Part shown: one piece after another, positions 25,396 to 32,329 of the stretch
Layout: every line of letters begins with the position of its first letter
Numbering within the stretch: the first letter of the stretch is position 1
Assembly: GCA_016281535.1 (NCBI GenBank)
Contig: JAEEIT010000034.1
Coordinates: 1-53,495 of the forward strand
Length of the DNA: 53,495 nt
Direction: 5' to 3'
Source: Clostridia bacterium
Lineage (GTDB): Bacteria > Bacillota > Clostridia > Saccharofermentanales > Saccharofermentanaceae
Notes under the pieces: generated by a model
The model's input: only the letters and a program-made list of their open reading frames with translations
Databases searched by the model: none
Told to the model about the DNA's origin: nothing
Position numbers and translations under genes: made by a program

Positions 25396-26646
25396 TTAAT
25401 CTTTGACTTTCGGAAGGGTAGATCCGCCGTAAGGCATCACCACGATCTTCGCATCGGGTCCCTTCTCGGCGATGGCAGAATCGATCGCGGTCTGGATATC
25501 GGAATACGGCTCGAGGAAGACTTTCTTCACGAAGTCGTGCGGCAGATCCGAAACGAAGAAGATACGGGCATTCTGAAGGACCATGGCAATGGCCGCCGCC
25601 TTATGTCCTCCCAGGACGAAGTCGGTCTTGATATGGGTGATCATATCCGAACTCTTCTCATGCCCCGTGAGCCACTGCTCGAAATGCTTCTCGCCGAGGC
25701 CTTCCTTGCAGGAGGCGATCCACACGATGATGCCCCCCTCCTTCACCGCATGCTTCGCGTTGTCCAGTGCTTTCTGCGCCTGATACATATTGATGTCCTT
25801 GGGGAAACCACCTGCGCTGACGACGACGATGTCGGCCCGCTCGGGGATACTGACCTTATAGAAAGAATCAAGGAACTTACAGCCCTCTCTGTGGGCCAGA
25901 ACCGGATCGCCGGCGAAGCTTCGGATGATCTCCTTCTTCGCGTCGAGGACCACGTTGACGATGTAATCGACACCCAGGATCTTCCCGGCTTCCTCGATGT
26001 CCTCGCGGACCGGATTGCCTTCGAGATGGCCGGCGCAGGCAGTAGGTTCCACCATCGCGCTGTGGTTGTGCTGGATGGCATCCCATGTGGAAACGCCCGG
26101 CATGATGGCCTTATAGCCGCCGGAATAACCGGCGAAATAGTGATATTCGATGTTGCCGAGGCAGATCCTTCTGTCCGCTTCCACGACCGGGCGGAAGATA
26201 TCGACAGGTGTTCCTCGGGAAGTCGTGCCTACATGAACGGCGTCATTGACGTCGGAATCGATGCAGCGGATGCGGTCATAGACGGCGTCCCCCACCATGT
26301 AGCGCATACGCTCTTCCGTATGTCCGCCATGGGAACCGAGGGCGAATACGATGGTGATGTCGGAATCGGGAATACCTGCGGCAGAGAGCTCGTCGAGCAC
26401 GGCCGGAAGGACCTTATAGCTCGGAATCGGACGGGTGATGTCCGAGGTGATGATGGCGACCGTCTCGCCTTTCTTCACGACTTCACGGAGTTTCGGAAGG
26501 CCGATCGGTTCACGCATGGAGCGATAGACTTCTTCGCTTCCGGTAAGGCCGATCTCGGCTTCGTTCGGCGTAAGTACCGCCATGACCTGACTGTCCGGAA
26601 CATTTACCGGGATCTTCTCTTTCCCAAAACCTAATGCTATCTCCAT
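25396..26646 (-). CDS. LarA-family nickel-pincer racemase
   Basis: A 416-residue LarA homologue (lactate racemase family, formerly DUF2088). The residues that hold or serve the nickel-pincer cofactor are visible: His in FALGSHGGHT, then EYHYFAGYSGGYKAIMPG with a His and the cofactor-linked Lys, and a further His in QHNHSAM. Family members racemise or epimerise 2-hydroxyacids such as lactate, malate or phenyllactate, so the substrate here is open. The cofactor-making genes larB, larC and larE are not in the window. GGGAGG precedes the ATG. Confidence 0.88.
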   Translation of the reverse strand: MEIALGFGKEKIPVNVPDSQVMAVLTPNEAEIGLTGSEEVYRSMREPIGLPKLREVVKKGETVAIITSDITRPIPSYKVLPAVLDELSAAGIPDSDITIVFALGSHGGHTEERMRYMVGDAVYDRIRCIDSDVNDAVHVGTTSRGTPVDIFRPVVEADRRICLGNIEYHYFAGYSGGYKAIMPGVSTWDAIQHNHSAMVEPTACAGHLEGNPVREDIEEAGKILGVDYIVNVVLDAKKEIIRSFAGDPVLAHREGCKFLDSFYKVSIPERADIVVVSAGGFPKDINMYQAQKALDNAKHAVKEGGIIVWIASCKEGLGEKHFEQWLTGHEKSSDMITHIKTDFVLGGHKAAAIAMVLQNARIFFVSDLPHDFVKKVFLEPYSDIQTAIDSAIAEKGPDAKIVVMPYGGSTLPKVKD

Positions 26647-28273: not shown

Positions 28274-29596
28274 ATGGAGAACCAGCGTCCGGATGTGAAG
28301 TGGACGATCCGCTATACCCTTCTGAATGCGACCTACTTCGTCGCCTTCTGCACGATCCATGCCTGCGCCGCCGTATACCTTCTGGCCAACGGCTTTTCCA
28401 ACACCGAGGTCGGTATCCTTCTGGCCGTAGCGAACATTCTGTCCGCAGTCCTTCAGCCATTCGTGGCGGGCATCATCGACAAGCCCGGTCCGCTTACGAA
28501 CCGGCGGTTCATCCTCTTCAGTGTTCTTGTTATCCTTCTGGGGTCGGCGGTCCTTCTTCTCGTCCCGGGAAATAAGTGGGTCATCTTCCCCGTCTTCGCG
28601 CTGATCTACATGATCCAGTTCGTCTACCAGCCTGTCATGACGGCCCTGTGCTTCGAGTACCAGAAGGCCGGCTGCCGCATCTTCTACGGACTTGCCCGTG
28701 GGCTGGGCTCCGCAAGTTTCGCTGTCACGGCAGCAGTCATCGGCGGTCTCGTCGAGAGATCCGGTGTCACGATCCTTCTTTTCGTTAACATCGCGTCGAT
28801 GCTTCTGTCCGCGATCCTCATCTACACCTTTAAGAAGCCCTCCACCATTCCTGCCGAGGTCTCCGGTGCCGCTGGTTCGGGAGCGTCCGTTGCCGCTTCC
28901 GAGGGAACAGGGCTTCTCGCCCGGGAAGCGTCGGGGGACGTCGACACCTCCGGGAAGACCCCGTCCGGTTCGACCGCACATAACAACATCCGCGACTTCG
29001 CCAGGACCTACCCCGCCTTCATGGTATTCCTTCTGGGAACGGTCTGCTTCTACTTCGCCCACAACATGATCAACGACTTCATGATCCAGATCATCCGCAA
29101 TCTTGGAGGCGGCGAGACGGAACTGGGCTACGCCAATTTCCTGCAGGCTATCTTAGAACTTCCGGTCATGGCCATGATCGGTCTGGTCCTGAAGAAGATT
29201 TCTTCCCGTTCGCTCCTCACCTTCTCAGGGGCGGCGTTCTTCGTGAAGATCCTGATCCTGGTATTCGCATCGAATATGGCCATGATGTACCTGAGCCAGT
29301 CCGTGCAGCTCTTCGCCTACGCGGTCTTCATTCCTGCCGCTGCCTACTATGTCAGTGAAACCATGGGCGACCTCGACCAGGTGAAAGGCCAGGCCTACGT
29401 CACATCCGCCATCACCATCGGCGGTGTATTCTCGAATCTTCTGAGCGGCGTCATTCTCGACCATTTCGGCATCCGCCCCATGCTCCTGTGCGGCACCATC
29501 GTCTGCGCCGTGGGTGTGGTCATCGGATACATCGCCATGAAGAAGCTTCCCCACAACCGGAATTCCCTTTCCGTTGCCTCTCCGGCACGTAAATAG
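28274..29596 (+). CDS. Major facilitator superfamily transporter
   Basis: A 440-residue membrane protein with 12 predicted helices split 6+6 by a Ser/Gly/Ala-rich cytoplasmic loop (about residues 197-240). The N-terminal half has NGFSNTEVGILLAVANI and the helix-2/3 loop with GIIDKPGPLTNRRFI. The second half has VKGQAYVTSAITIGGVFSNLLSG, seen in the sugar- and aromatic-acid-related MFS_1-like branch. The substrate cannot be told. It converges with the radical SAM gene 29 bases away, with no clear hairpin between them. Confidence 0.85.
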   Translation: MENQRPDVKWTIRYTLLNATYFVAFCTIHACAAVYLLANGFSNTEVGILLAVANILSAVLQPFVAGIIDKPGPLTNRRFILFSVLVILLGSAVLLLVPGNKWVIFPVFALIYMIQFVYQPVMTALCFEYQKAGCRIFYGLARGLGSASFAVTAAVIGGLVERSGVTILLFVNIASMLLSAILIYTFKKPSTIPAEVSGAAGSGASVAASEGTGLLAREASGDVDTSGKTPSGSTAHNNIRDFARTYPAFMVFLLGTVCFYFAHNMINDFMIQIIRNLGGGETELGYANFLQAILELPVMAMIGLVLKKISSRSLLTFSGAAFFVKILILVFASNMAMMYLSQSVQLFAYAVFIPAAAYYVSETMGDLDQVKGQAYVTSAITIGGVFSNLLSGVILDHFGIRPMLLCGTIVCAVGVVIGYIAMKKLPHNRNSLSVASPARK

Positions 29597-29625: not shown

Positions 29626-30801
29626 CTACTTCTTGTACATCCGCTCGACGAAGCGGGGATTGCTTTCGGAAATCAGAGAAGCGGCCGCCTCATCAGCCGT
29701 GTGGATAATGAGCTTCTCATACTCGCACTGCAGCGCGGACACCTCCGAGAAACTTCCGGTGTGACCGTGATTGGCGCACGCGCAGGTATGGTGGCAACGG
29801 GACCGCAGCTCGCATTTTCGGCACATCTTCGACTCGACACGCTGCTTCTCCATGGACCGGATCGATTTCCTGTCGATGCCCTCATCGACGGACCCGATTC
29901 CGAATCCGTCGCGTCCGATAAAATGACTGCAGGGGTAATACTTCCCGTCGACATCCACCATCAGTTTATGTCCGCCGAAGTGGCACATGGGTGTATCGGC
30001 ATCTCTCTGCCTGATATAATCGCGGATCTTCTTATCGAAGGGGATCAGACGGAATACCCCGTCTCCCTGATTCCACTTCACATACAGATCCCGGGCCTTC
30101 GCCATCTCGTCCGAAAGCCGTGCGAAAGCCTCCTCCGTCCATTCGACGCGGTCGCCGTGCGCAGGCACGAAGCTCACCGCGTGGACGCCCATGTCGTGGA
30201 ACATCTTAAGAGAGGCGGTAAGCTTATCCGCCTGGTCCGGATGGATGGTCATCATGATGATCGTCTCGGGAAAAGCACGAAGCAGCATCTTCAGTTTCTG
30301 ATCCACCACTTCTTTCGTCGGGTGGCCTCCGCGGTCCACACGGACCGGATCCTGCGCCATGCCATCGTGGGACAGCGCCAGAAGGATCTTGCTTTTCTTG
30401 GCAAAAGCGACGAAGTCTGCATCCAGCAGCGTGCCGTTCGTCGTGATCTCGAAGACGACTTTCGCATGTGGGATCTCGCGGACACGGGTCCTCGCGTAAG
30501 TAACCAGATACTCGATCTCTTTCCTTGCCAGGAGAGGTTCCCCACCGTAGAAGGAGATCTGTGCGCTGAGCGCCGGTGCATCCCCGGTTCCGGATTCTTC
30601 CTCTTCGGACGCGCGGCGCATCCCGTCTTCGGACGCGCGCCGCATCCCGTCCATCATCAGATCGATGGCCTTCACCGCCGTCTCCCTCGGCATATACACA
30701 TCTTCATGTTTCTGCAGGCAATACCGGCAATCGAAATTACACTGGTGGGTCATCACCAGTGTCATTCTTTTCGTGTAGTTTTCGATCTGATGCTTGGCCA
30801 T
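29626..30801 (-). CDS. Radical SAM/SPASM peptide maturase-like enzyme
   Basis: A 391-residue enzyme. The [4Fe-4S]-SAM site is Cys21-x3-Cys25-x2-Cys28 (CNFDCRYC), followed by SFYGGEPLL and ITTNGTLL. The C-terminus holds a full SPASM domain: Cys-x12-Gly-x4-Cys (CHFGG to YYPC), then CRKCELRSRCHHTC, which is Cys-x2-Cys-x5-Cys-x3-Cys, and a late Cys. This fits peptide maturases and anaerobic sulfatase maturases. An insert has two tandem copies of DGMRRASE encoded by a 24-bp repeat (30603-30650). The ATG lies 4 bases after the stop of the acidic repeat protein. The longer frame to 30849 runs into that gene and is less likely. Its substrate may be the neighbour. Confidence 0.85.
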   Translation of the reverse strand: MAKHQIENYTKRMTLVMTHQCNFDCRYCLQKHEDVYMPRETAVKAIDLMMDGMRRASEDGMRRASEEEESGTGDAPALSAQISFYGGEPLLARKEIEYLVTYARTRVREIPHAKVVFEITTNGTLLDADFVAFAKKSKILLALSHDGMAQDPVRVDRGGHPTKEVVDQKLKMLLRAFPETIIMMTIHPDQADKLTASLKMFHDMGVHAVSFVPAHGDRVEWTEEAFARLSDEMAKARDLYVKWNQGDGVFRLIPFDKKIRDYIRQRDADTPMCHFGGHKLMVDVDGKYYPCSHFIGRDGFGIGSVDEGIDRKSIRSMEKQRVESKMCRKCELRSRCHHTCACANHGHTGSFSEVSALQCEYEKLIIHTADEAAASLISESNPRFVERMYKK

Positions 30802-30805
30802 GGCT

Positions 30806-31288
30806 TTATCCGTCCAGATAATCCGGATTGACTTCGACGCCTCCCTCAAGAATATACTCCGTCGGGGCGGAATCGATATCTGCGTCTACGTCTGCATCCG
30901 TATAGTCCGGATCGATCTGCATATCTCCATCGATGTAATAATCCGTCGTCTCGGTCTCGACCGGCTCTTCCCCGCCCAGAATGGTCTCATCGATCGGACA
31001 GGTTTCTTCGCCTTCCAGTACGACATCCGGCTCTGTATATTCGGTCATTTCGCCGCCCATGATCTCATAGGATTCTCTCGTGGTCACTACCGCCTTACGC
31101 TGCTTCGCGAGCTTCTTCATGGCCCGAACCGGAGAATAATCGTCTCCGCATGCGGACGCCAGTGCAAGGGTTGCCGTGATCGCCGTTACGGCCGCGATCT
31201 TGGCCTTATTCTTTCCTTCGGGGCTTCCCAGCTGATCAAGTGTCGGATAGTCCGGTGTCATCGGCTTTCTAACTGGTTCACGCTTCAT
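30806..31288 (-). CDS. Acidic Gly-Gly/Pro-Asp-Tyr repeat protein, candidate RiPP precursor
   Basis: A 160-residue protein I do not recognise. It has a polar N-terminus (1-30), one hydrophobic segment (31-46) ending Ala-Ser-Ala-Cys47, then a basic patch (56-66) and a strongly acidic C-terminal half. That half repeats a pattern: IMGGEMTEYTEPDV (76-89), ILGGEEPVETETTDY (103-117), YIDGDMQIDPDYTD (118-131) and ILEGGVEVNPDYLDG (146-160). GGGAG lies 9 bases before the ATG at 31288; the ATG at 31297 is too close to it. It ends 4 bases before the radical SAM start. It could be a modified-peptide precursor, or an exported lipoprotein-like protein altered by the maturase; the lipobox is imperfect. Confidence 0.7.
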   Translation of the reverse strand: MKREPVRKPMTPDYPTLDQLGSPEGKNKAKIAAVTAITATLALASACGDDYSPVRAMKKLAKQRKAVVTTRESYEIMGGEMTEYTEPDVVLEGEETCPIDETILGGEEPVETETTDYYIDGDMQIDPDYTDADVDADIDSAPTEYILEGGVEVNPDYLDG

Positions 31289-31389: not shown

Positions 31390-32148
31390 TTAATCATCTC
31401 CGGCTTTGATCTGTACGGTGATGCCGGATCCGATCAGGGCCGCCCAGATGAAGAAGGATACCCATCCATTATACAGCCCCTGCTTCACGACGGGAAGAAG
31501 GAAGGACGGGAGTTTATCCCATGTGTAGAGGATCCCCATCGTGCCGAGGAATACGTCACGGAGGATATCGGCGCCGATAACGGCGGTAATGATCTTGATG
31601 GCCGGTGCCTGGAGAAGGCAGATGATGATGCCCACGAAGATGCCGATCAGAAGGGCGATCAGGCAGATGGCCAGAAGTTTCTCCCCGTCCGTGTTCCCGG
31701 GAAGCCAGGACATGACCTTCGCCATCTGGGAATCGGAGATCAGGTTCTGGGCACCGTCGCTGCCGTCCGTCAGCTTCGCGATCGAGTCCGGCGACAGCGA
31801 GATGAAGAGTTTGAGATCGTTCTGCGTCTTGATGATATAAAGCAGCGAGATCTTCATGAGGGTGTACCACGTGAAAAACATGGAAATGAAGAACAGTGCT
31901 TTTTTATAAATGGCGTAAGAAAGGATGGCCAGAAGAAGACCGATCACGATGGGGAAGAAGAATTCCCAGGTATCCCGGGCTTTCTCGGGGATCTTCTCGA
32001 GAAGGAACATCGAGTCGAGGATATTGGCCAGCTGCATGCCCATGAAGAATCCGGCCATGGCCATGGAGAAACGGAACATCCGGAAACCGTAGAAACACAG
32101 CAGGAGACCCATCGCTGCAAACGTCAGTAAAGTTACCGTGTCGAGCAT
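31390..32148 (-). CDS. Multi-pass membrane protein of unknown function
   Basis: A 252-residue protein with about six membrane helices and a helix pattern resembling the TM7S3/TM198-like (DUF4203) group: GFRMFRFSMAMAGFFMGMQLA and later LIALLIGIFVGIIICLLQAPAIKI. The frame extends to 32214, but AAGGAGAG lies 6 bases before the ATG at 32148 and the hydrophobic start follows it. It is 101 bases upstream of the acidic repeat protein, in the same direction, and could share its transcript. The function is unknown. Confidence 0.7.
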   Translation of the reverse strand: MLDTVTLLTFAAMGLLLCFYGFRMFRFSMAMAGFFMGMQLANILDSMFLLEKIPEKARDTWEFFFPIVIGLLLAILSYAIYKKALFFISMFFTWYTLMKISLLYIIKTQNDLKLFISLSPDSIAKLTDGSDGAQNLISDSQMAKVMSWLPGNTDGEKLLAICLIALLIGIFVGIIICLLQAPAIKIITAVIGADILRDVFLGTMGILYTWDKLPSFLLPVVKQGLYNGWVSFFIWAALIGSGITVQIKAGDD

Positions 32149-32329
32149 CTCTATTCTCTCCTTCCCGGGCATAAATCTTCTGCCTACCATTATAAGAGAA
32201 CAAACCATCTGCAATGTAACAGAACGTTTTCAATTCACGGACATTTTTACGTAAAATTGCCTTGCGATTATCCTCCGTCTTTGCGAAAATAGATACAGTA
32301 CTTCTATTTTGAAATTGGGAGGTTTAGTT

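Follow-up and report, generated by a model that had tools for sequence, protein, structure and literature searches.

Gene Arrangement at the Locus

The DNA analyzed here, referred to as the window, is a stretch of 53,495 nucleotides from a Clostridia bacterium of the family Saccharofermentanaceae (GenBank assembly GCA_016281535.1, contig JAEEIT010000034.1). On its minus strand lie two genes in tandem, one for an acidic repeat protein of 160 residues (30806–31288), followed by one for a radical SAM/SPASM enzyme (29626–30801). The open reading frame (ORF) of the acidic protein, the candidate substrate (precursor), starts with an ATG at 31288, which has the sequence GGGAG 9 bases ahead of it, and runs for 160 codons to a stop codon at 30806–30808. 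The Met at 31288 is also the alignment start of 14 leaders of the genus type (alignment A3). The enzyme ATG lies at 30801, 4 bases past the stop of its partner, and the 391-residue reading frame stops at 29626. These coordinates and the domain scores given below confirm the initial annotation, in which a full SPASM maturase was placed 4 bases past the stop of a 160-residue protein.

Between positions 29560 and 32300, a promoter scan found two promoter-like sites, compared to 1.7 expected, both of them on the opposite strand, and a terminator scan found nine terminator-like sites, compared to 2.2 expected. A 10-bp inverted repeat at 30739–30762, inside the enzyme gene and over its TLVMTHQ codons, may be there by chance. 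The plasmid search gave no matches at 1e-40 that would point to plasmid carriage.

The Radical SAM/SPASM Enzyme

The enzyme scored 51.2 bits against the Pfam Radical_SAM model (PF04055; cutoff 29.5) and 40.5 bits against the SPASM model TIGR04085 (cutoff 27); against the Pfam SPASM model (PF13186) it reached 16 bits, under the cutoff of 21.5. The CxxxCxxC motif of the SAM-binding [4Fe-4S] cluster (C21, C25 and C28; 30718–30741) was invariant in 29 aligned sequences, comprising the window enzyme and 28 relatives, as were the SPASM cysteines C273, C291, C327, C330, C336, C340 and C359. (The enzyme of locus L047, which is cut, was excluded from alignment A1.) With two models matched above cutoff and the complete set of cysteines, the protein is a full radical SAM/SPASM enzyme. 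The SPASM region, from C273 to C359 (29725–29985), carries the signature C..C....RC...C.C.N, which includes an extra cysteine, Cys342, two residues past Cys340. Every one of the 85 relatives whose SPASM region could be read has this residue; they come from a set of 88 loci (including the best 80 of 320 stretches), of which three with a cut SPASM region were set aside. It has no counterpart in TigE or in CteB, where an Ala is found instead, and the alignment with anSME ends ahead of this position. Cys342 might occupy the site of an auxiliary cluster.

The best NCBIfam match was to the PapB family (NF047865) at 170.2 bits, half of the cutoff of 340, and three relatives of the enzyme scored 189.8, 195.2 and 222 bits; membership in the PapB family was dropped on the basis of the window score. 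Sulfatase maturase, SCIFF, quinohemoprotein and other NCBIfam models all scored lower than PapB.

The AlphaFold2 model of the enzyme had a mean pLDDT of 89.6 and a pTM of 0.88. When this model was used in a structure search, the nearest solved folds were CteB, ChlB, anSME and TigE, that is, SPASM enzymes that modify peptides or proteins, which we count in favor of a substrate-modifying role for the predicted fold. CteB, the SCIFF maturase, acts on Cys-rich peptides and carries about 95 extra residues at its N-terminus, which form its RRE; the enzyme in the window has no N-terminal counterpart of CteB residues 1–94 in the alignment. The CteB structures (PDB 5wgg and 5why) were the closest of the solved folds (TMq 0.76). 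A small RRE protein could escape detection in our clustering of the neighborhoods, since this took ORFs of at least 90 residues. anSME is a SPASM enzyme that has no RRE and modifies exported proteins at a local motif, much like what is proposed for the present enzyme.

The Partner Protein

The partner starts with a leader, MKxxPV..P.YPTL.Q, that continues into a hydrophobic segment ending in a lipobox-like Cys47 (31148–31288). The invariant residues of this region include M1, P12, Y14, P15, T16, Q19 and C47 (alignment A3, n = 14); the leader consensus is MKxxPV...PxYPTL in the genus of the window and MKIxPxKxYKKPxYA in one large group of relatives. The hydrophobic segment closing in Ala-Ser-Ala-Cys had been pointed out at the outset as a possible export signal, and a lipoprotein-like signal is supported. 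In the relatives, the same architecture of leader, hydrophobic stretch and Cys is followed by an acidic, Thr-rich region, and 111 of 112 relatives have the Cys at the end of this stretch, which is partly by construction, as the profile was made to end there. The residue at −3 of a classical lipobox is Leu; the window has the weaker Ala. Judged by this pattern, the partner would have a signal peptide that closes in a lipobox Cys, as in lipoproteins. No family in NCBIfam or Pfam matched the partner better than E 0.1.

The acidic core that follows consists of 113 residues bearing x-G units (30809–31147). We compared it with the short cores (≤180 residues, n = 93) from the 88 loci, which include the best 80 of 320 stretches. 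The conserved unit is [L/I/Y]-x-G-[D/E], with Ile and Tyr also found at position −2, in the wider surroundings [V/L/Y]-x-L-[A/D/M/E]-G-[E/D]-[V/A/T]-x-[V/I]. The L..G pair was the strongest residue pair in the short cores, with 193 occurrences compared to 34.1 in 60 shuffles (z = 27.5). A strict [LIVMYF]xG[DE] unit was found in 81 of the 93 cores and was missing from 12, and seven had no [LIYVMFW]xG at all; some cores close in a variant such as ITAGIVS. The Gly-Gly/Pro-Asp-Tyr repeat unit of the initial annotation did not hold up, as PDY is found in 13 of the 93 cores. In the window core, [LIYVMFW]xG occurs eight times with overlaps counted, compared to 2.93 in shuffled sequences, of which 6/5000 reached eight. 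The units include IMGG (31052–31063), within SYEIMGGEMTE; LEGE (31007–31018), shortly ahead of the single core Cys (LEGEETCPIDE); ILGG (30971–30982); IDGD (30923–30934); and LEGG (30839–30850), all on the minus strand.

The core changes fast, while the leader and the enzyme are more conserved. Among the close relatives, mean identity was 0.653 for the enzyme (n = 22) and 0.512 for the leader, compared to 0.308 with 53% gaps for the core (n = 23), which varied in length from 62 to 124 residues (n = 23). A conserved leader and a variable core next to a candidate modifying enzyme conform, at the level of sequence, to the general organization of a RiPP system. A purely peptide product is not supported.

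The unit also goes with the leader. Among ORFs with a lipobox, 34 of 43 with a leader score of at least 12 had a strict unit no more than 60 residues from the Cys (12.2 in shuffles), compared to 8 of 34 with a score below 5 (4.6 in shuffles); the comparison took the two ends of the score range, and the groups contain near-copies.

Conservation of the Pair

A first survey covered 59 genomes: the genome of the window, 22 others of its genus, 12 of the family and 24 of the order. Partner matches came from 22 of these, all within the 23 genomes of the genus, and the enzyme matched in 29 at 1e-30, namely the same 22 and seven more of the family. The 23 places at which the partner matched in the 22 genomes are each immediately upstream of an enzyme match. 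At 29 of 30 enzyme loci inspected, other genera included, the upstream protein had a like general design; the remaining locus, L054, has a different partner.

Enzyme relatives were found on 320 stretches in named genomes. The best 80 of these are nearly all from Clostridia, mostly metagenome-assembled genomes from rumen and gut with few isolates; relatives of the host itself live in animal guts. The 88 loci that were parsed consist of these 80, the window and seven further loci, with one record present twice (L078 and L112). For the leader profile, which ends in the Cys, we took ORFs lying immediately ahead of the enzyme gene: omitting three loci without an upstream ORF and nine without the hydrophobic-Cys pattern at the position inspected left 76 leaders, of which four were dropped and duplicates merged to give 68 distinct sequences. 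At E < 0.01, this profile matched 113 ORFs in the 88 loci, all of them on the strand of the enzyme and between −3 and +2.5 kb of its start, with no matches elsewhere in the stretches, which mostly extend 5 kb to each side. A leader ORF was close to the enzyme in 83 of the 88 loci: 59 had one, 20 had two, three had three and one had five, so that 24 had at least two. The five loci without a match are L115, L138 and L152, where the contig ends; L137, which by eye has the second type of partner described below; and L139. Because the profile was trained on upstream ORFs, the counts of adjacency and of the Cys are partly circular, and the informative part of the result is the extra copies and the absence of matches elsewhere. 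With a leader ORF at 83 of the 88 loci and a partner in all but one of the 23 genus genomes, the coupling of enzyme and partner that had been proposed is supported. The leader types track the enzyme tree, with three changes for four types (three unlabeled rows omitted), for which shared descent alone could also suffice.

The initial annotation had also drawn attention to a membrane protein gene just upstream. This gene is present, at 31390–32214, and is TMEM198-like (PF13886, 33.5 bits, cutoff 29.2), but it belongs to a block shared across the genus and found at most of its loci, made up of a HerA-like ATPase, the TMEM198-like gene, the pair, a Na/H exchanger and LarA. In other genera, the flanking genes differ and the enzyme–partner pair stays. 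Since the pair persists there without constant neighbors, the TMEM198-like gene was dropped as a part of the system. The sole genome of the genus without the pair (G009) is uninformative as to a joint loss of enzyme and partner, since the TMEM198-like match is absent there as well, an observation on one genome without a positive control. In the window, the TMEM198-like gene and the HerA-like ATPase (PF05872; 32309–34126) are divergent neighbors conserved in the genus, and the gene at 25396–26646 encodes a nickel-pincer malate racemase of the LarAH6 family (573.5 bits, cutoff 500).

Unlinked Leader Proteins and Co-Occurrence with the Enzyme

We searched for substrates away from the enzyme in 30 enzyme-bearing genomes, picked by leader type from the best 80 of the 320 stretches, with leader profile A2. 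Besides the adjacent copies, there were 11 leader ORFs on other contigs in seven of the 30 genomes (E < 1e-6). Ten of these were read; the eleventh (G353:C26) has an internal stop. Eight of the ten are 186–408 residues long, counted from the leader Met, and have a large non-repeat part, and two are short; most combine a large non-repeat part with one or two units. A strict unit comes soon past the Cys in eight of the ten, and in L254 and L255, which are related to each other, YGSET takes its place. Two further unlinked matches at about 1e-5, with ORFs near 800 residues (G357:C7 and G351:C8), were left out of the count. No Pfam family matched at E ≤ 0.05 in the four unlinked proteins that were scanned. 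At L147, a relative of the unlinked protein L212 adjoins the enzyme (31% identity, E = 3.6e-55). One unlinked leader lipoprotein (L258:1048–2214) contains a metalloprotease-like HELTH..E stretch, seen by eye and without a Pfam match, and has a unit past its Cys. Unlinked proteins of this kind, in which one or two units are joined to an extensive additional region, suggest in-trans action of the enzyme as well.

Presence and absence were compared across the class, in a set of 291 genomes. Thirteen of these matched the enzyme profile at 1e-60, and four matched leader profile A2 at E < 1e-6, all of them among the 13. In genus g2, four genomes have both enzyme and leader, and three have neither. 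At E ≤ 0.01, profile A2 matched 48 of the 291 genomes; the 44 weaker than 1e-6 (the strongest being G102, at 5.1e-6) were left out, and many of the weak matches, though not all, span merely the hydrophobic part of a signal peptide. The weak matches read individually were those of genome G153. For nine of the 13 enzyme-positive genomes, A2 gave no strong match. Of these, G000 has a leader of type A3; in G153, G218, G333, G228 and G229, the leader lipoproteins belong to other types; G073 is truncated where its contig begins; and the other two are G289 and G122. G122 contains an enzyme relative with four in-frame TAA codons (L180, G122:C31:111944–112876), either a degraded copy or a sign of another genetic code. 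In the genus of the window, the A3 leader was found in 22 of 23 genomes, at 23 full-length places that are all at the enzyme, and three further partial A3 matches carry stops. Leader proteins widespread in genomes without the enzyme would have told against the coupling; this was not seen, as all four of the 291 genomes with a leader match at E < 1e-6 are enzyme-positive. Leader proteins do not always adjoin the enzyme, as the 11 unlinked ORFs show.

Other Partner Types

Beside one branch of the enzyme family there is a second type of partner, made up of longer lipoproteins with HGEGRGSFGC..VAPPVFLSEEEA and RDFIxWLxxEGI ends. Since these occur with the same enzyme family, that family has more than one substrate design. 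Second-type lipoproteins were seen at L213–L219, L081, L084, L086 and L137, sometimes as two copies in tandem. Their leader often has LPxRW and is followed by the Cys, then mostly by HGEGRGSFGCVSVAPPVFLSEEEA, and by an end of the form QVRDFIxWLxxEGI. The one protein of this type that was scanned had no Pfam or NCBIfam match, and the three that were tested had no strict unit up to 60 residues from the Cys. At L128, L151 and L167, small partners immediately upstream of the enzyme have a leader-like motif (such as KIDTYNAGY), and no hydrophobic segment or lipobox. The motif in these partners suggests a role of the leader for the enzyme, in addition to export.

Proposed Modification of Lipoproteins

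From the pairing, the leader, the Cys past the hydrophobic stretch, the enrichment of the unit and the co-occurrence of leader and enzyme, all of which can be read directly in the sequences, we infer a course of events that includes leader recognition, modification at the unit and lipidation. A lipoprotein would be made with the leader as the beginning of its lipoprotein-like signal peptide. In the cytoplasm, the enzyme would recognize the conserved N-terminal leader and act on the [L/I/Y]-x-G-[D/E] units downstream of it. The protein would then be exported, lipidated and cut at the Cys that closes the hydrophobic stretch, and since signal peptidase cuts at this Cys, the leader would be removed as well. 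The end state would be a lipoprotein with modified units on the cell surface. We put the probability at about 0.65 that the pair is the enzyme and substrate of an unnamed radical SAM system that modifies lipoproteins before export, guided by the leader and acting at the x-G units. Against this reading speak the 12 short cores that have no strict unit, the three second-type partners without one near the Cys, the Cys residues placed near units in other members, and the Ala at −3 of the lipobox.

As for the chemistry, we would guess at an oxidation, costing 2 Da per site, that takes place at the Gly and its neighbors or close to them. Because the Gly is constant and Leu, Ile and Tyr alternate at −2, this guess puts the change either on the unit backbone or on the Gly together with the acid that follows it. 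Still more tentatively, and short of what we would call probable, the pair might represent a dedicated system for cell-surface lipoproteins, with a leader built into the signal peptide, [L/I/Y]-x-G-[D/E] as its sequon, one enzyme for multi-unit and unlinked lipoproteins alike, and a novel residue or crosslink placed between the lipid anchor and the remaining polypeptide, export taking the place of the usual leader protease. If so, a RiPP-style enzyme would modify the surface lipoproteins of gut and rumen Clostridia in general, a signal peptide would double as an enzyme leader, and the sequon would be readable and serve as a marker for finding substrates in genomes; a single enzyme and a short peptide would be enough for a direct test of the chemistry. 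The recurrence of the pair and of the tag in related bacteria points to an undescribed route of chemically altering surface proteins.

Cysteine Placement and Alternative Explanations

Cysteine accounts for 0.8% of the residues in the 93 short cores, 61 in all; 41 cores have none, 52 have at least one and seven have two or more. The repeated unit itself contains no Cys, and the cores do not show the repeated Cys donors of ranthipeptides or sactipeptides. The partner is thus not Cys-rich, as originally described, but the Cys residues that are present sit non-randomly near the units. Relative to the Gly of [LIVMYF]xG, there were 13 Cys matches at G+4 and 14 at G+5, compared to 1.4 and 1.3 in shuffles (0/300 as high); these 27 matches, where about 2.7 would be expected, usually involve a single Cys per protein. 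Within about 10 residues past a unit, we found 37 of the 61 Cys, compared to 12.5 (0/300 shuffles as high). The C...[DE] pattern occurred 22 times, compared to 15.2 in shuffles, of which 11/300 were as high. In the window, the sole Cys of the core comes just past LEGE.

This placement is the reason for keeping a PapB-like thioether as a rival and for not calling the system free of Cys chemistry; in some members, the unit may act together with the Cys. On this ranthipeptide-like explanation, each core would have roughly one crosslink, from the Cys to a side chain within a unit or close to it, and the remaining units would be spacers or decoys. PapB is the closest curated enzyme family, likewise SPASM, and according to the excerpt of PMC9413430 it joins Cys to Asp or Glu, residues in which the cores are rich, some of them with a Cys near a unit. 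The enzyme falls far short of the PapB cutoff, however, the Cys-free cores stand beside enzymes of the same family, the PapA likeness does not extend to the lipoprotein-like signal on the substrate, and the 193 LxG far exceed the 61 Cys. With many units for each Cys and members that have no Cys, a thioether is disfavored as the whole story, and we regard it as unlikely, although the Cys placement raised its probability somewhat and slightly lowered that of the main reading and of the more tentative one.

Another explanation, which we likewise consider unlikely, keeps enzyme and lipoprotein as a true pair but places the action of the enzyme on the leader or at some other residue; the x-G units would then be a structural β-strand motif. 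The hydrophobic alternation V-x-L-x-G-x-V-x-V would be consistent with a strand, as would weak matches to bactofilin and TamB (E = 0.053 each, below cutoff), and the three second-type partners tested have no strict unit near their Cys. The spacing of the units is irregular for such a motif, however, with 128 of 305 intervals in the short cores at 13–18 residues, the linkers are rich in Thr, Pro and acidic residues, and single units recur soon past the Cys in proteins that are otherwise different.

That the enzyme is an anaerobic sulfatase maturase for sulfatases elsewhere in the genome, with the acidic protein as a chance neighbor, is very improbable and was dropped: anSME structures are among the nearest folds (TMq 0.70–0.73) and TIGR03942 gave 94.8 bits, but its cutoff is 349.45, none of the four sulfatase-fold ORFs in this 81%-complete genome has a [CS]xPxR (CxPxR or SxPxR) motif, each of the four has at least three long hydrophobic stretches, and the acidic partner is conserved next to the enzyme.

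Relation to Known Systems

For the proposed system, in which the enzyme would modify lipoproteins at x-G units, the families and the literature offer partial likenesses. None of the curated families searched covers the enzyme or the partner, in agreement with the early impression that the precursor pattern has no named family, and we recognized no description of this lipoprotein/radical SAM system in the open-access literature searched, judging by titles and the beginnings of abstracts. A pairing of radical SAM enzyme and lipoprotein already exists as the NCBI names rSAM_w_lipo (TIGR04133) and lipo_with_rSAM (TIGR04134), which resemble the present pair, by name, as a radical SAM/SPASM enzyme with a lipoprotein. 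The proteins described here do not match these models: the enzyme relative L134 scored 46.6 bits against TIGR04133, compared to a cutoff of 425, and none of nine partner proteins scanned matched TIGR04134 at E ≤ 1, so that their scores do not place them in either family.

A further system for comparison is TvgB/TvgA, which converts repeated TVGG units to cyclopropylglycine with the loss of 2 Da per modified Val (PMC9062424). The main text of that paper does not use the terms "lipoprotein" and "leader". TVGG differs from the unit found here, and the tvg locus has further genes for an oxidase and a peptidase/transporter. The two systems are alike in that one radical SAM enzyme is combined with a repeated, Gly-containing unit that has no Cys.
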